Positions 2,373 through 19,220 of a stretch of 64,000 bases of DNA are shown in pieces. Made by a program: the position numbers and the translations under genes. Each line of letters begins with the position of its first letter. The first letter of the stretch is position 1. Origin of the DNA: Natronomonas marina (GTDB lineage Archaea > Halobacteriota > Halobacteria > Halobacteriales > Haloarculaceae); contig NZ_CP101154.1 of NCBI RefSeq assembly GCF_024298905.1, positions 2,914,001 through 2,978,000 of the forward strand, given 5' to 3'. The notes under the pieces are model-generated. The model worked only from the letters and a program-made list of their open reading frames with translations. It was not told the DNA's origin and made no database searches.

Positions 2373-3497
2373 ATGAGTTCCGTTGTCAAAGAGCCAAGTC
2401 CGGTCGAGGAGCATTACACGATCGACACGGACTTTCACCTCCAGATCGATCACGAACTGCTCTACGACTACGTCGAGGACGACTACCTGCGAAAGCGGCT
2501 GGAGTCCGACGGGACGCCGCCGATACCCTACATGGGCGGGAACCCGTTCTACAGCTGGGAGAGCCGGAAGTCGAAGGCGACGACGCAAGGCGCGGCAGTG
2601 ACGAAAGAGGAGATCTCGGGCGTGATGGACGACTGGGGGCTCGACATCGCCACGGTGAGCCCGCTTCCGAACACCTTCATGGCGAACGGCCGGTACCCGC
2701 GGATCCAGAAGGCCTGTATCCGGGCGTATCACGAGTACCTCCTCGACAGGGTCGTCGATCCCGAGGCGGGCATCTACGCGCTGGCGATCGCCAACGACTT
2801 CGACGCCGAGTGGACGGCCGAGGAACTCGACCGGATCGGCGCCGAGGACGGCATCGTCGGGGCGACGAACTGGGTGAACAACGATCCGCCGATGGGTCTC
2901 GCCGAGAACGACGCCATCTGGGACGTACTGGACGCGCGGGACATGCCGATCGTCTTCCACCAGGGGTCGGGCGGCGGCCGGTGGGACCCCTACGAGAAGC
3001 ACTACGAGTCGGCCGAACGGCTGATCTCCGGGCAGTTCTACCAGGTGTCGGGGAACATCATGAACATGATAATGACGGGCGTCTTCGACAAGTACCCCGA
3101 CCTCGATGTCCTGATCCAGGAACAGGGGACCGCCTGGATACCGTACATGGCGAACCACGCCGATCAGCTGTACGAGGAGTACTCCGAGGACGTCGCACTG
3201 ACCGAGCGGATGTACGCCGACCTCGAACAGCGGTCGCTGAAGCGGAACCCAAGCGAGTACCTCTACGACAACGTCTACGTGACGACACAGCCGATCGCGC
3301 TCCCCAGGCGGGGCGACCATGTCAAATCGGCCCTCGAGATCCGGCGGGCCAAGGAGATGTTCCTGTTCTCCACCGACTGGCCCCACTCGACGGTCGACAC
3401 GCCCGACTGGGTCAACCACTCCCAGATCGACGACGACCTCCGGGAGCACATCCTCCACAAGAACGCCCAGGAAGTCTTCGACTACACGGCAGCCTGA
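2373..3497 (+). CDS. ACMSD/decarboxylase-type amidohydrolase (PF04909-like), paralogue 1
   Basis: 374 aa TIM-barrel amidohydrolase of the ACMSD / gamma-resorcylate decarboxylase group. Visible ligand candidates are D20-x-H22 (TIDTDFHL) on the first strand, H196 (PIVFHQG) and D335 (FSTDWPH). Most amidohydrolases have H-x-H on strand 1 and the decarboxylase group has E-x-H, so D-x-H is unusual. The segment PDLDVLIQEQGTAWIPY replaces the common H-x-G-G by the E/Q-x-G-x-x-W-I-P form of one subfamily. Metal-dependent decarboxylation or hydrolysis of a carboxylate is expected; the substrate is unknown. It is followed after 21 bases by a Rieske protein and then by a second amidohydrolase, suggesting a functional trio. 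Confidence 0.85.
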   Translation: MSSVVKEPSPVEEHYTIDTDFHLQIDHELLYDYVEDDYLRKRLESDGTPPIPYMGGNPFYSWESRKSKATTQGAAVTKEEISGVMDDWGLDIATVSPLPNTFMANGRYPRIQKACIRAYHEYLLDRVVDPEAGIYALAIANDFDAEWTAEELDRIGAEDGIVGATNWVNNDPPMGLAENDAIWDVLDARDMPIVFHQGSGGGRWDPYEKHYESAERLISGQFYQVSGNIMNMIMTGVFDKYPDLDVLIQEQGTAWIPYMANHADQLYEEYSEDVALTERMYADLEQRSLKRNPSEYLYDNVYVTTQPIALPRRGDHVKSALEIRRAKEMFLFSTDWPHSTVDTPDWVNHSQIDDDLREHILHKNAQEVFDYTAA

Positions 3498-3518
3498 CTC
3501 TCTACACCTCGCATATAA

Positions 3519-3884
3519 ATGACGAAACACCAGATCGGAACGATCGACGAGTTCCCCGAGGGGAAAGCAACGCCCGTGAGCGTCGACGGTATTCAGCTCG
3601 CCATCTTCAACGTCGACGGAGAGCTGTACGCCATCGTCGACAACTGTCTCCACAAGAACCTGCCGCTCAGCAAGATCGGGGACGACGCGGTCAGCGACGA
3701 GAGCCTCTGTAGCAAGAAGGCGAGGTTCACGCTGGGCGAGATCGACGAGACGAACCTCACCGTCTCCTGCCCGTATCACTACATGGAGTGGAGCCTGGAG
3801 ACGGGCAAGAGCCCCGTCTTCGACTACCGGCTCCCGACGTACAACGTCACCATCGACGAAGACGACGTCTTCGTGACGCTGTAA
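3519..3884 (+). CDS. Small Rieske [2Fe-2S] ferredoxin-like protein
   Basis: 121 aa, a stand-alone Rieske domain. The cluster ligands are C43-L-H45 and C84-P-Y-H87, matching C-x-H and C-x-x-H. The spacer between the motifs is 38 residues, against about 15-20 in typical Rieske ferredoxins; the insert (about 51-80) is acidic and contains C64. There is no oxygenase catalytic domain, so this is an electron carrier or an accessory subunit. It starts 21 bases after the first amidohydrolase stop and precedes the second amidohydrolase by 100 bases. That implies a redox step, or structural partnership, with these metal enzymes, although amidohydrolases do not normally need one. Confidence 0.88.
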   Translation: MTKHQIGTIDEFPEGKATPVSVDGIQLAIFNVDGELYAIVDNCLHKNLPLSKIGDDAVSDESLCSKKARFTLGEIDETNLTVSCPYHYMEWSLETGKSPVFDYRLPTYNVTIDEDDVFVTL

Positions 3885-3984
3885 CGTCCGTCCCCGTTCG
3901 CTCCGGGGGCGCCGAACGCGTCGTTCTCGACATGTCATTCGTCGTTCAGAAACATTAAGGCCGAGTGCGGACAGTCCATACAGT

Positions 3985-5136
3985 ATGAGCACTACCGAAG
4001 AGGAGGGAGTTCGCTCCATCGGGACGTTCCAGGACGAACGCGTCGTCGACGCCGAGTTCCACGTTCCGATAACGGCACCCTCCGTCTACGAGTACGTCGA
4101 CGATCCGAAGGCACGGGAGTGGTTCGAGGAACTCGGTCCGCCGCTGCCCGCGACGAGCGGCTGGTGGGAACCGTACGCCAACGAGGAGATGGCCGGGTAC
4201 TCCTTCATGGAGGAACTGCTCAGCGTCCCGTCGGCCGAAGAGCGGATCACGAGCGAGGACGTCCGGGAGACGATGACGGAGCTGGGCCTCGACGCGGTGG
4301 TCGTGAACCCGCCCGACGACTTCCCGCTGGTGGACAGCCGGACACCCAAGATGATGAACCAGGTGGCCAGGGCGTACAACGATTACGTCCTCGACCGGAT
4401 CGTGGACCCCTCGGAGGGTATCTACGCCGCGATGATCCTTCCGTTCTGGGACCCGCCGTTCGCCGAAGCCGAGGTCGAGCGGATCGGGGCCGAAGAGGGG
4501 ATCGTCGCGGGCGTCAACTGGCTGACGCTGGACCGGCCGTTCGGCGTCATCGAGTACGACGGTGTTCTGGAGAAGCTCGCCGGGCACGACCTGCCGCTGT
4601 TGCTCCACCGGGGGCCGAGTTCGGAGTTCTACCATACGATGGACCGGAACCTCCAGACCTTCGTCGAGAACAAGATGACGACCGAGAACAAGACGATGCT
4701 CGGCGCCGTCATGAACATGATCTACACCGGGGTCTTCGACGCCCACACCGACCTCGAGGTGGTGATCCAGGGGTTCGGTGGCATGTGGATTCCCTTTGCG
4801 GCCGACCGTGGCGACGAGATCTACCAGGTGAACTCCGGGGACTACCAGCTGACCAACCGGATGTACGACGGCGAGTACGAGTACCTGCCGCGGCGCCCCA
4901 GCGAGTACGTCCACGACAACTTCTACGTGACCAACTGCTCGATCGGGCTGCCGCCGTCCGAGGAGATGCTGGAACACGCGCTGAAGGTGACCTACGCCGA
5001 CGAGACGTTCATGTACTCGACGAACTGGCCGGACGGGGAGGTCGACGGCGCGGAGTGGCTCGACCGTCCGGGCATCGACGAGGACACGCGGGCGGCGATC
5101 CTGCACGGCAACGCCGAGGACGTCTTCGGCATCTGA
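3985..5136 (+). CDS. ACMSD/decarboxylase-type amidohydrolase, paralogue 2
   Basis: 383 aa and clearly paralogous to the gene at 2373 (shared DRIVDP, GVFD, W-I-P and RRPSEY blocks). Strand 1 carries E24-x-H26 (VVDAEFHV), the metal-binding form known from gamma-resorcylate and 5-carboxyvanillate decarboxylases. H208 (LLLHRG) matches the next ligand. The position of the essential Asp is Asn347 (STNWPDG), whereas paralogue 1 keeps Asp. So this copy may be catalytically altered or act as a partner subunit. TATA-like AACATTAAGG at 3951-3960 gives about 30-base spacing to the ATG, so it can be transcribed independently of the Rieske gene. Decarboxylase-like activity is inference from the E-x-H motif. 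Confidence 0.85.
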   Translation: MSTTEEEGVRSIGTFQDERVVDAEFHVPITAPSVYEYVDDPKAREWFEELGPPLPATSGWWEPYANEEMAGYSFMEELLSVPSAEERITSEDVRETMTELGLDAVVVNPPDDFPLVDSRTPKMMNQVARAYNDYVLDRIVDPSEGIYAAMILPFWDPPFAEAEVERIGAEEGIVAGVNWLTLDRPFGVIEYDGVLEKLAGHDLPLLLHRGPSSEFYHTMDRNLQTFVENKMTTENKTMLGAVMNMIYTGVFDAHTDLEVVIQGFGGMWIPFAADRGDEIYQVNSGDYQLTNRMYDGEYEYLPRRPSEYVHDNFYVTNCSIGLPPSEEMLEHALKVTYADETFMYSTNWPDGEVDGAEWLDRPGIDEDTRAAILHGNAEDVFGI

Positions 5137-5195: not shown

Positions 5196-5837
5196 ATGGG
5201 TAAGAGTCAGAGCGAAACACGGCCGGGGGCCGGCGGGCAACTACTTGACCCACGCGGGCGCGTCGAAGTCGAGGAGAAGGGGCTGGCCCCCCGCCTGGAG
5301 TCACTCGAGGGAACGACGGTCGGACTGCTCGACAACGCCAAGCCGAACGCCGATCGCTTCCTCGACGCCGTCGGCGAGATGCTTGTCGACGAGTACGGTG
5401 TCGAGGCGGTCGAACGGGCGAGCAAACACGCCGCCGCCGTCTCCGGTGGGTCGCTGTTGCCCGAGTTGCGGGCCGAGTGTGACGCCGTCGTCAACGCCTA
5501 CGGCGACTGCGGATCGTGTACGTCGTGGTGTGTTCACGACAGCGCGACGCTGGAGTTACAGGGCGTCCCGACGGCCACGATCAACAGCGACGAGTTCGTC
5601 CGACTCGGACAGTCGGACGCGCGGGCGCTGGGGCTTCCGGGGCTGCCGCTCGTCACGGTCCCGCACCCGATGGGCGACGTCTCGCCGGACGTGGTTCGCA
5701 GCCGTGCCCGCGACACCATCGCCGAGATCGCCGCTGTCCTCACGACGTCCCGAACGGAACTCGACGACGAGTACCGGGGGAAGTTCCTCGGCGAGAACGA
5801 GGAACTCACCGACGAGGACCTCTACTGCCCGCTGTGA
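5196..5837 (+). CDS. UGSC-family protein, Cys form (CGSC), copy 1
   Basis: 213 aa. The segment YGDCGSCTSW places C105-G-S-C108 at the end of a predicted beta strand. The N-terminal block GLLDNAKPNADRFL is characteristic of the UGSC family, named for the Sec-Gly-Ser-Cys motif of its bacterial selenoprotein members. Here the Sec position is an ordinary TGC Cys codon. Cys replacing Sec implies C105 is a redox or nucleophilic centre; the reaction is not established to my knowledge. A further Cys (C112, two residues after the motif's TS) is not shared with copy 2. Its stop is 3 bases before the start of the ~350-aa partner gene, so the two are surely co-transcribed. A paralogous pair sits at 14965-16661. 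Confidence 0.82.
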   Translation: MGKSQSETRPGAGGQLLDPRGRVEVEEKGLAPRLESLEGTTVGLLDNAKPNADRFLDAVGEMLVDEYGVEAVERASKHAAAVSGGSLLPELRAECDAVVNAYGDCGSCTSWCVHDSATLELQGVPTATINSDEFVRLGQSDARALGLPGLPLVTVPHPMGDVSPDVVRSRARDTIAEIAAVLTTSRTELDDEYRGKFLGENEELTDEDLYCPL

Positions 5838-5840
5838 CAG

Positions 5841-6905
5841 ATGAGCGAGCGATCCGAACCCCTCGACGTCGAGGGTGACGTCGAGGAGGTTTACGAGCGG
5901 TTCTACGAGGAGGAGATGACCGACGGGCTCCCGATCATTCCGCCGTCCCGCGACCGGGTCGACCGGATGCTCGGGGCGACCGACCGCGAGCCGACCGAGA
6001 GCCTCGGGGAGGTCCCGCCGAAGTACGGGGCGGCCACGGTCGAGAAGGTCGCGGTCAACGCCGTGATGGCCGGCTGTAAGCCGGCCTACCTCCCCGTCGT
6101 GATCGCCGCGGTCGAGGCGATGCTACGGGAGGAGTTCAACCTCTACGGCATCAACACCACGACCCACCCCGTCGCGCCGCTGCTCGTCGTGAACGGGCCC
6201 ATCGTCGAGGAACTCAACCTCAACTACGGGTACAACGTCTTCGGGCCGGGATGGCGTGCGAACGCGACCATCGGGCGGGCACTCCGCCTCGTGTTGCTCA
6301 ACGTCGGCGGCGGCACGCCCGGAAAGATGGACCGTGCGACACACGGTCAGCCGGGGAAGTTCTCCTTCTGTATCGCCGAAAACGAGCGGAAGACTCCCTG
6401 GGCGCCGCTGCACGTCGAGCGTGGCTTCGACGAATCGACGTCGACCGTGACCGTCTTCGGGACGGAGGGGCCACACGAGGTCAACGACCACATCAGCCAG
6501 GACGGCGGGGGCGTGTTGAGCGTCATGGCCGACGTCCTCGCCACGGTCGGGAACAACAACGCGATCGGAACGAGAGGGGAACTCGTCTGTGTCTTCAGCC
6601 CCGAACACGCCGAGACCATCGCAAACGACGGGTTCTCGCGGGAGGACGTTCGGTGGTTCCTCTACGACTACGCCCGGAACCGCGTGGGGAAGATACGGGA
6701 CAACGGACCGGAGGGGCTCTACGACTGGGACACGATCGACATCTGGGAGAAGCGGTTCCACACTCCCGACGGCGACGCCCGTCTCCCGCTGGTGAAACGG
6801 CCCGAGGACATCACGGTTCTCGTGGCCGGGGGCGCGGGAAAGCACTCGATGGTGTTGCACTCCTTCGGCGAGACGACGTCGGTGACCGCGCCGATCGAAC
6901 GATAG
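5841..6905 (+). CDS. UGSC-associated protein of unknown function, copy 1
   Basis: 354 aa, no signal peptide, no membrane segment, and no domain I can name with confidence. Blocks conserved with the second copy at 15609 are: P-P-K-Y-G-x-A-T-V-E-K near the N-terminus; N-A-V-M-A-G-C-x-P; V-V-N-G-P-I-V-E-E-L; RANATIGRA; N-V-G-G; the HVERGFDEST-STVTVFG block; a C-I-A-E-N-E Cys site; and S-P-E-H-A followed by D-G-F/W. Two Cys (A-G-C and C-x-A-E-N-E) are kept in both copies and are candidates for metal or thiol chemistry. It follows the CGSC gene by 3 bases. The pairing recurs in this genome, so the two proteins probably form one enzyme or pathway step. Confidence 0.75.
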   Translation: MSERSEPLDVEGDVEEVYERFYEEEMTDGLPIIPPSRDRVDRMLGATDREPTESLGEVPPKYGAATVEKVAVNAVMAGCKPAYLPVVIAAVEAMLREEFNLYGINTTTHPVAPLLVVNGPIVEELNLNYGYNVFGPGWRANATIGRALRLVLLNVGGGTPGKMDRATHGQPGKFSFCIAENERKTPWAPLHVERGFDESTSTVTVFGTEGPHEVNDHISQDGGGVLSVMADVLATVGNNNAIGTRGELVCVFSPEHAETIANDGFSREDVRWFLYDYARNRVGKIRDNGPEGLYDWDTIDIWEKRFHTPDGDARLPLVKRPEDITVLVAGGAGKHSMVLHSFGETTSVTAPIER

Positions 6906-6964: not shown

Positions 6965-7945
6965 CTATACGTGAATCGTCCGTCCGTTCTCGACGACCAG
7001 TTCCCCGTCGAGTTCCAGGTCGGCCTCACCGAGCATGACGTCGAAGTGGACGGGCGCCTCGACGGTGCCGCCGAGCACCGTGCTCTTCCCGATACCGAAG
7101 TGGACGTTGCCGTACCGGCAGTGGGCCGTGATGAAGTGGTCGTCGAACGCCGTCACCTCGGGGTTCATTCCGACGGCTAGCTGTGCCACGTTGTAGACGC
7201 CCGGGTCGTCGTACCCCTCCCAGACGCGCCGGAGCTTTTCGGCCACGACGCCCCCTTCGACGTCCGTGACGGCTCCGTCCTCGATTTCGAGGGTTATCGG
7301 CTCCGAAAGCGCGCCGATGTCGAAGTCGGGGATCGCCCCGTCGACGACGACCGTCCCCTCGGTCGTCCCCTCGACCGGAGCGACGTTCGCCTCCATCGCC
7401 CCCGGACCGCCGGCGCCTCCGGGCTCTCGGGCGAGTCCGTTGACCGCGTTTCCCTCCCGTCCCGAGAGCCCGACGTGGACCTCCGTTCCCTGGGGAGAGG
7501 TGACGGTCGCCGAGTCGGCTTCGGAGAAGCGGTCGGCCATCGCCTCGATCTTCGGCTGCATCGCCTCGAAATCCGCGTAGATCGCACCGTCGATCAGCTG
7601 TTCGGGGGCGAACTGCGTCATCATGATCCACCGCCGATCACTGTCGAGTCCGGCTTCGACGGCATCGGAGTGTGAGATCGACCGCGAAACGATCACGAAG
7701 ACGACGGTCGCCTCGTACATCGCCGCGGCGACCGAATCGGGCGGCTCGTTGCCCTCGTGTTCCCGCGGGTCCATGAGCGTCATGGTCACGTTCGCGTCGC
7801 GCTCCCTCGCTGCCGCAGCGATCCGTTCGGCGACCTCGGCAGCCTCCCAGTCGGTGACGATCACCACGTCCTCGTCCGGTTGTAGAGCCGCACTCTCCTC
7901 GACGATGGTGCGAGCCCCTCGCATCTCTCGAACGCTTTCGAACAT
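6965..7945 (-). CDS. M29 aminopeptidase / NicX-like metalloenzyme
   Basis: 326 aa, with the two-part layout of the M29 (thermophilic aminopeptidase) fold also used by 2,5-dihydroxypyridine dioxygenase (NicX). The C-terminal metal region is recognisable: G-N-V-H-F-G-I-G and, about 20 residues on, A-P-V-H-F-D, giving the His/His-x-Asp ligand set. The usual E-x-G-x-G-x-N-P motif reads A-Q-L-A-V-G-M-N-P, so one Glu ligand of M29 peptidases is Gln. That leans away from a standard dinuclear peptidase and would fit a mononuclear iron site as in NicX, but this is inference. It converges with the UGSC partner gene and is divergent from the peptide-binding lipoprotein, suggesting a role in processing imported substrate. 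Confidence 0.7.
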   Translation of the reverse strand: MFESVREMRGARTIVEESAALQPDEDVVIVTDWEAAEVAERIAAAARERDANVTMTLMDPREHEGNEPPDSVAAAMYEATVVFVIVSRSISHSDAVEAGLDSDRRWIMMTQFAPEQLIDGAIYADFEAMQPKIEAMADRFSEADSATVTSPQGTEVHVGLSGREGNAVNGLAREPGGAGGPGAMEANVAPVEGTTEGTVVVDGAIPDFDIGALSEPITLEIEDGAVTDVEGGVVAEKLRRVWEGYDDPGVYNVAQLAVGMNPEVTAFDDHFITAHCRYGNVHFGIGKSTVLGGTVEAPVHFDVMLGEADLELDGELVVENGRTIHV

Positions 7946-14964: not shown

Positions 14965-15612
14965 GTGGCACAGAAACACACACAGAAGACGCTGGACCCC
15001 ACGGGCGAACCGGACATCACCGAAATCGAGATGGCGGAACGTCCCAGCACGCTCGACGGGGTGCGAGTAACGCCGTACAGCAACGGGTTCCCGAACTCCG
15101 TCGAGTTCCTCGAGGCGCTCACCGACGCCCTCGGGGAACGGTTCTCGGAGGCCGAGTTCAACGACCTCGTGATGAAGCCGCAGGCGATCCGGCCGGGTTC
15201 ATACTGGGGAACCGTCGAGGAGAAAGTCGCACCCGTAAGCGACGTCGTGTTGATGGCGTACGGACACTGCGGGTCCTGTACGACGAACACGATCAAGGAC
15301 GTGGTCGCCCTCGAAGAGCGCGACATTCCCGCCGTCGCCTTCGTCACCGAGGAGTTCTACCCGCTCGGGGTCTTCGACGGCCACCACCTCGGGGCATCGG
15401 GGCTCGCAGTCGTCCCCATCGAACACCCCGTCGCCCAGATCGATCCCGAGACCGTGCCCGAACGCGTCACGGACGAACTCGTCGAGGACACGATATTCGC
15501 ACTGACCAACCCACCGGAGACGGTGCGGGCCGAGTTCGAGAGCCGGTACGAACTCGACGACTTCGCCGAGCGACCCAGCTACGATCGGTGTACTCTGGAC
15601 ATACTAGAATGA
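14965..15612 (+). CDS. UGSC-family protein, Cys form (CGSC), copy 2
   Basis: 215 aa from a GTG at 14965. An in-frame TTG lies 8 codons upstream, but the GTG sits about 31 bases after a TTTACTT element at 14931-14937 and keeps the conserved T-L-D-P-T-G start. C102-G-S-C105 in YGHCGSCTTN matches copy 1 (YGDCGSCTSW), and the following strand and I-P-A-V/T-A residues also align. The N-terminal N-A-K-P-N-A-D signature has drifted to PYSNGFPNSVEF, so this is a diverged paralogue, perhaps with a different substrate. The stop overlaps the start of its ~350-aa partner (ATGA). Redox or thiol chemistry at C102 is inferred from the Sec-containing relatives. Confidence 0.8.
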   Translation: MAQKHTQKTLDPTGEPDITEIEMAERPSTLDGVRVTPYSNGFPNSVEFLEALTDALGERFSEAEFNDLVMKPQAIRPGSYWGTVEEKVAPVSDVVLMAYGHCGSCTTNTIKDVVALEERDIPAVAFVTEEFYPLGVFDGHHLGASGLAVVPIEHPVAQIDPETVPERVTDELVEDTIFALTNPPETVRAEFESRYELDDFAERPSYDRCTLDILE

Positions 15613-16661
15613 GCGACACCGCGATAGACGGGTTGCCCGGCGTTTCGCCGACGCGCGAGCGGGTCGACGAGTTCCTCGAGTACACCGACCTCGCGCCCGA
15701 CCACTCGCTGGGGGCGATCCCGCCGAAGTTCGGGGAGGCGACGGTCGAGAAACTCGCGATCAACGCCGTCGTCGCCGGCTGTCAGCCGCGGTACTTCCCC
15801 CTGATCTTGGCGGCAGTCGAGGGGATGCTCCACGACGAGGAGGCGCTGCACAACATCCTCACCACGACGTTCCCGGGGTGGCCGGTCGTGATGATAAACG
15901 GGCCGGTCGTCGAGGAGTTGGAGGTGAACTACGGTCGCAACGCCCTGGGGCCGGGCTTTCAGTCCAACGCCACGATCGGGCGAGCGATCACCCTCATCTG
16001 CATGAACGTCGGGGGGGCGGTCCCGGGCGACACGGACGAGGCCACCTACGGCGGCCCACACAAGTACGGCCTCTGCTGGGCGGAGAACGAGAAGCGTAAC
16101 CCCTGGACCCCGCTGCATGTCGAGCGCGGCTTCGACGAGTCGACGTCGACGGTGACCGTCTTCGGCGCCGAGGTCGGCCCCAGACAGATCAACGACCACA
16201 TCTCGACGGACAGCGCGAGCATCCTCTCGACCTGTGCGAAGACGATGGCGACGGTCGGGACGAACATGATGTACCTGAGCCGGCTGGGCGAACCGCACCT
16301 GTCGCTCTGTCCCGAGCACGCGGACATGCTGGCCGCCGACGGCTGGGACAAGATCGACATCAAGCGGTACATCTACGACCAGGCCCGGGTGCCGAAATCC
16401 GAGTGGGAAGGCCGGGGGCTCCACCGACCCGATCCGGGCGACGTCGCGGCCTCGTGGCCGAAGCACTTCGACGTCGGACACCCCGACGGGCGGATCGGCA
16501 TGTGTCCGACGCCCGAGGACGTCATCGTGACCGTGACCGGTGGCGAAGGTCGGCACTCGTTTTTCTTCCCCGACTTCAGCCAGTGGCAGACGGAGACGGT
16601 CCCGATAACGCTCGAGGACGGAACGGCCGTCGAGTCCGTCGAGGAGTTCCGCAGCGCCTGA
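15609..16661 (+). CDS. UGSC-associated protein of unknown function, copy 2
   Basis: 350 aa, start overlapping the CGSC gene stop. It aligns over its whole length with the gene at 5841: P-P-K-F-G-E-A-T-V-E-K, N-A-V-V-A-G-C-Q-P, INGPVVEEL, SNATIGRA, N-V-G-G, C-W-A-E-N-E, HVERGFDEST, then P-E-H-A-D-M-L-A-A-D-G-W. It lacks the about 30-residue N-terminal lead of copy 1 and carries more Cys (including C-P-E-H-A and M-C-P-T-P). No known catalytic signature or cofactor motif was recognised. Tight coupling to a CGSC protein in both copies argues for a two-subunit enzyme. Confidence 0.75.
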   Translation: MSDTAIDGLPGVSPTRERVDEFLEYTDLAPDHSLGAIPPKFGEATVEKLAINAVVAGCQPRYFPLILAAVEGMLHDEEALHNILTTTFPGWPVVMINGPVVEELEVNYGRNALGPGFQSNATIGRAITLICMNVGGAVPGDTDEATYGGPHKYGLCWAENEKRNPWTPLHVERGFDESTSTVTVFGAEVGPRQINDHISTDSASILSTCAKTMATVGTNMMYLSRLGEPHLSLCPEHADMLAADGWDKIDIKRYIYDQARVPKSEWEGRGLHRPDPGDVAASWPKHFDVGHPDGRIGMCPTPEDVIVTVTGGEGRHSFFFPDFSQWQTETVPITLEDGTAVESVEEFRSA

Positions 16662-16664
16662 CGA

Positions 16665-17189
16665 TCACTCCATCGCCGACGCTACTTCCTCGAGAATCCG
16701 CTCGGCGGGGTCCTCCGCTACGACCCCCGAGACGGTCACGGTTCCCGCCCGCGTGACGAAGACGACGACATCCCGATCCGGGTACCGGTAGACGAGGGCG
16801 GCCCCGGATCGCTCCGGGAGGATCGCGTTCTCGCCGAGGCGCTCGTTGAGCGCGTCGAGATCGACCCCCCCGGACCGCTCCGCTACCCAGACCCGGTTGT
16901 CGATCGACAGGGGGTTCTTCGCGGCGATGTCCTCGTCGACGTTCCCCGAGAGAAACGCCAGTACGGCCTCGTTCGTCGCCTCGAGTTCCTCGTCGGATCC
17001 CGCGTTCCGGACCGAGTACTTCCCGGTCCGGTGGACGGTCACCACCGGCCCGTCGTCTGTGGTCCGGAGGCTCAGGCGTCCGGGGTGGCGGGTACAGTCG
17101 TACCGTCCCCGGGCCGCCCGCTCGATGCGATCCAGGTCGACGTACTGGTTCAGTCGACCGGACCCGACGACGTTCACGAGTCGCACCAT
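16665..17189 (-). CDS. Divergent TATA-binding-protein-like protein
   Basis: 174 aa in two tandem halves, each resembling a TBP repeat. The first half has V-N-V-V-G-S-G, Y-V-D-L-D-R-I-E, Y-x5-P-G-R-L-S-L-R, then T-G-K-Y-S-V-R-N-A-G-S-D-E-E-L. The second has S-I-D-N, V-D-L-D-A-L, a degenerate P-G equivalent, V-Y-R-Y-P and V-F-V-T-R-A-G-T-V-T-V-S-G. Length and layout match archaeal TBP (about 180 aa), but several DNA-contact positions are changed, so it may recognise altered promoters or not bind DNA as TBP does. Haloarchaea carry several TBPs. Its place beside the UGSC cluster (3-base convergent gap) suggests a cluster-specific basal factor, as inference. The fold call rests on pattern recognition only. 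Confidence 0.62.
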   Translation of the reverse strand: MVRLVNVVGSGRLNQYVDLDRIERAARGRYDCTRHPGRLSLRTTDDGPVVTVHRTGKYSVRNAGSDEELEATNEAVLAFLSGNVDEDIAAKNPLSIDNRVWVAERSGGVDLDALNERLGENAILPERSGAALVYRYPDRDVVVFVTRAGTVTVSGVVAEDPAERILEEVASAME

Positions 17190-17439: not shown

Positions 17440-17829
17440 TTACTCGACGGCCGGGTGGAGCCGTCCGCGTCGATCCTCGTCGCTCGGGGTCTCCGGCAGT
17501 TCGAAGTCGTCCGGCACCTCGATGTCGATGTCCATCATGATGTTGCCCCGGGACTTGCCGTGGATGTCCATGTTCAGACTCCGACCGATGACGCCCCCGT
17601 CGAGCGCCTCGTGCATCACGAAGTTGATCGCGGAGATGCCGTCGAACGGGTACCGCTCGATCGGCCCGTCGACGAGCCCGTCGTAGGCCTCGGCCACCCG
17701 GTCGACGGTCAGTTCCTCCATCAGGAGCTCGTAGTCGTCGGTGCGGTAGGGAACGACGTGGACGTTGGAGATGTCGCCCTTGTCACCGCTCCGGGAGAAC
17801 GCGATCTCCTTGACCTTGATCGATCTCAT
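17440..17829 (-). CDS. AtuA-like small C-terminal-domain protein
   Basis: 129 aa, with the ATG at 17829, 2 bases after the AtuA stop. It has the signature F-S-R-S-G-D-K-G-D-I-S-N-V-H-V, then about 35 residues and an N-F-V-M-H-E-A-L-D-G-G-V block. In many bacteria this domain is fused to the C-terminus of AtuA (acyclic terpene utilisation); here it is a separate gene. It is cytoplasmic and its function is unknown beyond that association. A second pair of the same kind lies at 54513-56236. A longer reading frame upstream overlaps the AtuA gene and is rejected. Confidence 0.85.
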   Translation of the reverse strand: MRSIKVKEIAFSRSGDKGDISNVHVVPYRTDDYELLMEELTVDRVAEAYDGLVDGPIERYPFDGISAINFVMHEALDGGVIGRSLNMDIHGKSRGNIMMDIDIEVPDDFELPETPSDEDRRGRLHPAVE

Positions 17830-17831
17830 GG

Positions 17832-19220
17832 TTACATCGCCTCCGGTTCGGTCGCCGGGACGGGTACGATGTTGACGTCGGTCGAGACTGCCTCGGGGGA
17901 GACGAGGGTCGGATGGATAGTGAGGTTCGGGTTGACGTCCATGCCGACGCCGCCGGCCCCCGCACACGTCGGATAGATGTTCACGGCCGTCAGGTGAGCC
18001 AGGTCCTTCGCCGCCGCCTCGGTTTCGACCTTCGCCGCGACGCGGAGCCGGACCTCGTTGGGATCGCAGTCCGGTTCCCCTGCGGCGGGCCCGTGAACCG
18101 CGTCGACGCCGATGATGTCGAACCGCGTTTCGACGACCTCGTCGGCGTGTTCCCACGCCTCGAGTTTCGGTTTGAGCACCGTGTCCCGGACCACCTTCGC
18201 CTTCTCGTAGGAGTCCGGTCCGGCCCAGCTACCCTGGACGTCGGCGATGAAGCCGTTCTGGAACCCGACCAGCGCCTTCAGCGTGTCGGGCGCCGGCTCG
18301 CCGGCCGCCCCGGACACCCGGACCCGGTTCTCGTCGACCTGTTCCAGTTCGACCCCGCTCACGTCGAGCGTCAGCTCCGGCGTCTTGTACGCCGTCGGAT
18401 CGTGGACCTCGTAGCCGAGTTTGACGCCGAAGCTCAGCTCGTTTGCGACGCCCCCGGAGTCGGCGGGCTGGCTCACGACGGCCTCCCCGTTCGCTTCGAC
18501 CTCCGCGAGCGGTAGCCCGATGTCCCCGAGTCCCGGCACTTCGACGTACCCCGGCTGGTGGATGCTCGCGCCCGTCGCCGCGGCGCCACACTCCAGCAGG
18601 TGGGCGACGGTCGCGCCGTTGGCGAGCGTCTCCAGATCGTCCCCGTCCCACCCGAACTCGTGTATCATCGGCGCCAGGAACAGCGAGAGGTCAGTGAGAC
18701 GCCCCCCGATGACGACGTCGGCGCCCTGGGCGAGCGCGTCGACGATGGGCTCGGAGCCGATGTACGCGTGGGCCATCAGCGGCGACTCCTCGAACTGCAC
18801 CGACTCGCCGGTTACGGCGTGTTCCATATCGACCGCGTCGTCCTCGATCGCGTCGACGATGTCGTCGCCGGTTATCGTAGCTATCGTGAGATCGTCGTAT
18901 CCCAACTCCGCGGCAATCTCGGCGATCTTCTCCCCGGCTCCCTGCGTGTCCGCGGCGCCGAAACTGCCGATTATCGTGATGTCCTGGCGTACACACCGCG
19001 GGATCAGCGCCTCGAACCAGGGTTCGAGCCGGGGGTCGTATCCCGGGCCGGTCCCCGTGAGCATTCGCCGCCGTGCGTTTGCGAGCGTGCGCTCGGCCAA
19101 CCTGTCACAGCAGAGGTACTCGACGTCCCCGTCCTCGACGACCTTGATCGCGACGTCCTCCCGCTGGCCGTGTCCTGCGCTCCCACAGCCGATCCGCAAT
19201 GTCTTGCCACTGGTTCCCAT
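17832..19220 (-). CDS. AtuA family protein (acyclic terpene utilisation, DUF1446-type)
   Basis: 462 aa. The N-terminal G-C-G-S-A-G segment, the Y-L-C-C-D-R-L-A-E-R-T block, G-G-R-L-T-D-L-S-L-F-L-A-P and H-L-L-E-C-G-A-A-A-T-G-A are typical of AtuA proteins from terpene and branched-acid clusters. The biochemical role of AtuA is not settled. The gene is followed 2 bases later by the small AtuA-like partner. TATA-like CTATAAAC (reverse strand, 19246-19253) is about 30 bases ahead of the ATG. Divergent acyl-CoA dehydrogenase genes at 19401 and 20638 may act on the same acyl-CoA. Confidence 0.87.
   Translation of the reverse strand: MGTSGKTLRIGCGSAGHGQREDVAIKVVEDGDVEYLCCDRLAERTLANARRRMLTGTGPGYDPRLEPWFEALIPRCVRQDITIIGSFGAADTQGAGEKIAEIAAELGYDDLTIATITGDDIVDAIEDDAVDMEHAVTGESVQFEESPLMAHAYIGSEPIVDALAQGADVVIGGRLTDLSLFLAPMIHEFGWDGDDLETLANGATVAHLLECGAAATGASIHQPGYVEVPGLGDIGLPLAEVEANGEAVVSQPADSGGVANELSFGVKLGYEVHDPTAYKTPELTLDVSGVELEQVDENRVRVSGAAGEPAPDTLKALVGFQNGFIADVQGSWAGPDSYEKAKVVRDTVLKPKLEAWEHADEVVETRFDIIGVDAVHGPAAGEPDCDPNEVRLRVAAKVETEAAAKDLAHLTAVNIYPTCAGAGGVGMDVNPNLTIHPTLVSPEAVSTDVNIVPVPATEPEAM

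Follow-up and report, generated by a model that had tools for sequence, protein, structure and literature searches.

A probable Rieske-fed amidohydrolase-related dinuclear oxygenase with a degenerate paralogous partner in Natronomonas marina

The window analysed here is a 64,000-nucleotide stretch of the Natronomonas marina genome (contig NZ_CP101154.1, positions 2,914,001 to 2,978,000). It is haloarchaeal, has a GC content of about 65% and lies in a chromosome-sized contig of 3.85 Mb. Five consecutive genes on the forward strand, given below in window coordinates, make up the locus. A Pfam search assigned the two large proteins, P0001 (2373–3497, 374 aa; 2e-19) and P0003 (3985–5136, 383 aa; 3.5e-14), to the family PF04909, and the protein encoded between them, P0002 (3519–3884), to the Rieske [2Fe-2S] family PF00355 (1.1e-12). 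The fourth gene (5196–5837) encodes a UGSC family protein in its Cys form, CGSC (PF24696, 5e-56; NF041046, 149 bits for a cut-off of 125), and is a possible downstream member of the operon. Its partner P0005 (5841–6905) has no named family or solved relative, and recurs beside UGSC genes. The intergenic gaps are, in order, 21, 100, 59 and 3 bases. The five genes may be read as a single transcript, which has to stay conditional because the 100-base gap before P0003 has room for a separate promoter.

The neighbouring genes encode a citryl-CoA lyase, acyl-CoA dehydrogenases, a peptide-type ABC transporter, a NicX-like protein and AtuA, a setting that would point to the catabolism of an imported acid. 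A relative of 2,5-dihydroxypyridine 5,6-dioxygenase (PDB 7cn3, 1e-17) is encoded at 6965–7945, convergent with the operon. A gene pair for AtuA and an AtuA-ferredoxin-like domain (17,440–19,220) adjoins the acyl-CoA dehydrogenase genes. The same catabolic region contains a short additional TATA-binding-protein-like gene (16,665–17,189, 174 aa) with one matched PF00352 stretch. No reductase gene was found within the operon, the single PF00175 match of the genome being elsewhere.

Both large proteins were closest, by sequence and by fold, to the amidohydrolase-related dinuclear oxygenases (AROs), whose members include AibH2, SfbO and PtmU3. These enzymes, a class recognised only recently, use O2, bind two metals and have a Rieske ferredoxin neighbour (PMC7782822, PMC10401708, PMC10811679). 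The best matches of P0001 among solved structures were the ARO 8sm7 and AibH2 (6m1w_B). A profile built from P0001, P0003 and their relatives matched 8sm7 with 186 bits, 8sm9 with 149, AibH2 with 144, SfbO with 126 and PtmU3 with 64. The AlphaFold2 model of P0003 (pLDDT 82.8, pTM 0.87), searched against the PDB, retrieved only AROs or AibH1 at ranks 1 to 20, with decarboxylases appearing only afterwards. The original prediction had drawn an analogy to aromatic decarboxylases. Gamma-resorcylate and 5-carboxyvanillate decarboxylases (PDB 4QRO and 4ICM) do belong to the same superfamily, share the barrel and have the E-x-H form of P0003; they are, however, non-redox enzymes with one Mn or Zn, and the comparison with them gave only 95 and 75 bits with the same profile. 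In gamma-resorcylate decarboxylase the general acid is an Asp after strand 8, Asp287 (PMC8187880). P0003 has N347 at this catalytic position, and P0001 has D335, yet alongside a full set of dinuclear ligands. The decarboxylase reading was rejected on the lower profile scores, the fold ranking and the missing catalytic Asp of P0003.

The metal ligands of AibH2 are D25, H27, H211, E265, D337 and H340 (PMC7782822). All six are intact in P0001, as they are in nearly all of its haloarchaeal relatives: D20-x-H22 (2430–2438) aligned with D25/H27, H196 (2958–2960) with H211, E250 (3120–3122) with E265, and D335-W-P-H338 (3375–3386) with D337/H340. P0001 therefore combines the PF04909 fold, scored above the cut-off, with the six ligands and the adjacent Rieske gene of an ARO catalytic subunit. 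One residue may count against its being an ARO-type monooxygenase. An acidic second-shell residue, which is D342 in AibH2 (not a metal ligand) and E313 in PtmU3, goes with the dinuclear members of the family (PMC7782822), and its loss lowered the activity of AibH2 (PMC10401708). The corresponding residue is T340 in P0001, although nearly every member of its haloarchaeal clade shares this Thr. Two residues further on, the Asp D342 of P0001 is kept and might stand in for it.

The situation of P0003 was very different. At the six positions it has E24, H26, H208, G263, N347 and D350, so that four of the six are changed (D20 to E24, E250 to G263, D335 to N347 and H338 to D350, from P0001 to P0003). 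The first change lies in E24-x-H26 (4054–4062), H208 (4606–4608) is retained, G263 (4771–4773) replaces the ligand Glu, and N347-W-P-D350 (5023–5034) replaces the ligands Asp and His. In an alignment of 30 relatives, 54 columns were at least 95% invariant, comprising the 6 ligands and 48 others. P0003 retains 42 of the 48 non-ligand columns but only two of the six ligands (Fisher p = 0.008), a pattern of loss that, on this alignment, is not due to chance; P0001 retains 39 of the 48 and all six ligands. Several of the further losses in P0003 fall in nearby motif residues (Q306, P307 and T340 in the numbering of P0001). A dinuclear site in P0003 thus appears very unlikely, and E24, H26, H208 and N347 could hold a single metal. 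The original prediction had correctly placed the genes and named the residues D20-x-H22, H196 and D335 of P0001 and E24-x-H26, H208 and N347 of P0003. It had also assigned one changed ligand to each protein, a count that does not hold against the ARO family, where P0001 has none changed and P0003 four; the positions of E250 and H338 had been overlooked. Its suggestion of an unusual metal is plausible for P0001, as Mn/Fe or Fe2.

The Rieske protein, which had been thought not to be a known partner of this family, turned out to be expected, since AROs have a Rieske ferredoxin neighbour and it is their best-known partner. The Rieske ferredoxin AibG serves AibH1H2 (PMC7782822), and Rieske adjacency was used for the discovery of the ARO enzyme class (PMC10811679). 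The gene for P0002 adjoins that of P0001 and contains the cluster ligands C43-x-H45 and C84-x2-H87 (3645–3779), separated by a 38-residue loop. ARO-adjacent Rieske proteins usually have a long loop, mostly of 32–34 residues. A scan of genome contigs recovered 29 haloarchaeal loci of the P0001/P0003 clade, in which a Rieske gene directly follows 30 of the 31 intact ARO genes.

None of these 29 loci showed the two-paralogue arrangement, and no UGSC or P0005 homologue was present in the flanking DNA examined. No close orthologue was found for P0001 (best about 42% identity) or P0003 (best 35–39%); for P0003 the search covered 195 genomes of the order, 20 of the genus, and plasmids, and its outcome counts against the explanation preferred below. 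A second ARO of the same genome (G000:C1:3322422-3323423; locus L196, 7086–8625) is a canonical single-subunit enzyme and is accompanied by a separate Rieske gene. In the tree, P0001 and P0003 formed a sister pair within the intact clade (support 100/97, and 100/94 in a second tree), and it is therefore most likely that P0003 arose by local duplication of the catalytic gene and lost its site.

Degenerate copies close to an intact ARO and a Rieske gene also occur in two or more further lineages of haloarchaeal AROs. In a second lineage (G115, G289 and G333), the order is ARO, Rieske, degenerate ARO, and the ligand positions of the degenerate copy read DQKGDH, with 73–75% protein identity across the three species. 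In G437 the degenerate copy reads GQQNDH and is divergently placed, again in the vicinity of an intact ARO and a Rieske gene. Intact/degenerate pairs with a Rieske gene and with the states DQKGDH and GQQNDH were located at L189, L236, L237 and L193, the first three having the Rieske gene in the middle. The catalytic and degenerate subtrees of G115, G289, G333 and G437 match, as expected for co-inherited subunits. A third pair, from G008 and G174, consists of HGGL/CHHGGY copies that lie in the neighbourhood of intact AROs but do not share an operon with them. Forcing P0003 and the DQKGDH/GQQNDH copies into a single origin cost 115 log-likelihood units (AU p = 9e-9), and grouping P0003 with AibH1 instead of P0001 was also rejected (AU p = 3.4e-6). 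The tested groupings were chosen after the tree was seen, and the rejection involving AibH1 is the weaker of the two because that sequence is partial and long-branched. The fewest changes on the tree that account for the degenerate copies are three. From these topology tests, the degenerate ARO partner most likely arose more than once.

Two UGSC genes are present in the window, and a P0005-like gene comes after each of them (5196–6905 and 14,965–16,661); the two P0005-like proteins are 49% identical. They gave no relative in Pfam, NCBIfam or the PDB, and a structure model of P0005 from a two-sequence alignment reached a pLDDT of 34, too low to be of use. In many genomes the UGSC-P0005 pair is present with no ARO, accompanied elsewhere by DUF6282, CoA-transferase or thioredoxin-reductase genes. 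A thioredoxin reductase gene adjoins or lies near the pair in Roseovarius and Variovorax, and selB is a few genes from a P0005 homologue in Paracoccus. A resemblance of UGSC to the glycine-reductase protein GrdB was considered and rejected, Pfam giving no support for it even at E = 10. The pair is a putative thiol/selenol redox module. On the Natrinema zhouii plasmid NZ_CP084884.1 (L228, 8357–12,415), genes for UGSC, a P0005 homologue, DUF6282, an intact ARO and a Rieske protein are contiguous. This ARO-Rieske pair belongs to another ARO clade, and the two modules came together there independently. The link between AROs and the UGSC-P0005 module is no more than suggestive.

The closest known system is the 2-aminoisobutyrate hydroxylase AibH1H2-AibG-AibF of Rhodococcus wratislaviensis (PMC7782822, PMC10401708). 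It also has two PF04909 paralogues, of which one is dinuclear and catalytic and the other not, a Rieske ferredoxin gene, the same six catalytic ligands and transport genes nearby. In the Natronomonas locus the Rieske gene is situated between the subunit genes, no AibF homologue is present in the operon, and T340 of P0001 replaces D342 of AibH2. AibH1H2 is an alpha2 alpha'2 heterotetramer. AibH1 binds one metal and retains D24, H26, H201, E255 and D328. P0003 is likewise a PF04909 paralogue whose gene accompanies that of the catalytic subunit, but against this Asp, His, His, Glu, Asp site it presents E24, H26, H208, G263 and N347, that is, two unchanged residues (H26 and H208) and one conservative change. 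It is far more degraded than AibH1 and of separate origin, being sister to P0001. SfbO and the related single-subunit AROs (PDB 8SM6-8SM9; PMC10811679) are dinuclear PF04909 oxygenases with an adjacent Rieske gene and the closest solved structures to P0001; the parts of their description available to us mention no degenerate partner subunit. PtmU3 (PDB 6OMP) is, like P0001, a PF04909 protein, a more distant diiron hydroxylase without an auxiliary mononuclear partner (PMC10401708).

We consider it probable that P0001 and P0003, together with the Rieske protein, constitute a Rieske-fed haloarchaeal monooxygenase of the ARO kind, in which a degenerate partner assists the catalytic subunit. In this model, the (beta/alpha)8 subunit P0001 would hold two metals, Mn/Fe or Fe2, through its six ligands. 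A reductase for NAD(P)H or ferredoxin, encoded elsewhere, would reduce the Rieske ferredoxin, the presumed electron donor in a role like that of AibG, which would pass electrons to the dinuclear site; the reduced metals would then bind O2, and a small catabolic substrate would be hydroxylated at a C-H bond. Having lost the site and kept the fold, P0003 would be an obligate non-catalytic partner, as AibH1 is in its heterotetramer (PMC7782822, PMC10401708), and would shape or stabilise P0001 inside a heteromer. The ligand loop of AibH2 contacts AibH1 in AibH1H2 (PMC12141560). The best reading is thus the one, already offered by the original prediction, in which one copy is structural and the other catalytic. 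Several points count against this model: most haloarchaeal AROs do without a partner gene, so that P0003 could do something else; P0003 has its own upstream gap of 100 bp with a possible promoter; and the operon contains no reductase gene.

Such another role would be that of a separate mononuclear enzyme, P0001 and the Rieske protein being a complete ARO and P0003 catalysing another step of the pathway, for example a decarboxylation, hydration or hydrolysis, at a site made of E24, H26, H208, N347 and perhaps D350 or E352. The haloarchaeal relatives are nearly all single-subunit systems, P0003 could still bind one metal, and its E-x-H and His fit the ligands Glu8, His10 and His164 of gamma-resorcylate decarboxylase (PMC8187880). 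We nevertheless regard this as rather unlikely, given that N347 sits where decarboxylases have their general acid and that P0003 maintains the ARO scaffold residues and an ARO-like fold. Degenerate AROs elsewhere, moreover, lost other ligands (DQKGDH, GQQNDH), and such differing losses are more in keeping with lost function than with a new active site common to these proteins.

Simple decay of P0003 as a functionless duplicate could explain the four missing ligands and the failure to find orthologues in the sampled genomes. It is very improbable with a 383-aa frame that is intact, a third-position GC of 0.919 (0.904 for P0001), more of the other invariant residues kept than in P0001, losses that cluster at the ligands, and comparable degenerate partners conserved over three species of another lineage. 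Slightly less credible still is a reading of P0001 as an ordinary amidohydrolase or decarboxylase with a mononuclear site and the Rieske gene as a chance neighbour. Many PF04909 members are indeed non-redox (PMC10811679), but the six dinuclear ligands, the ARO top matches and the recurrent Rieske adjacency among the intact relatives stand against it.

The predicted oxygenase is of a known kind, and what is new is its degenerate partner. It is possible, though we hold this only tentatively and would not favour it as it stands, that haloarchaeal AROs were repeatedly duplicated to give active heteromers pairing a catalytic ARO with a dead one, here joined with a UGSC thiol (or selenol) protein module in one pathway; the dead copy would have lost the dinuclear site and possibly any metal altogether. 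In the founding Mn/Fe hydroxylase, mutation of the metal site of AibH1 gave insoluble protein (PMC10401708). P0003, in which most of the AibH1-type ligands are already lost, could show whether the metal of the partner matters or only its surface. The case has separate parallels in other haloarchaea, and two-subunit AROs would thereby be extended to the archaea.
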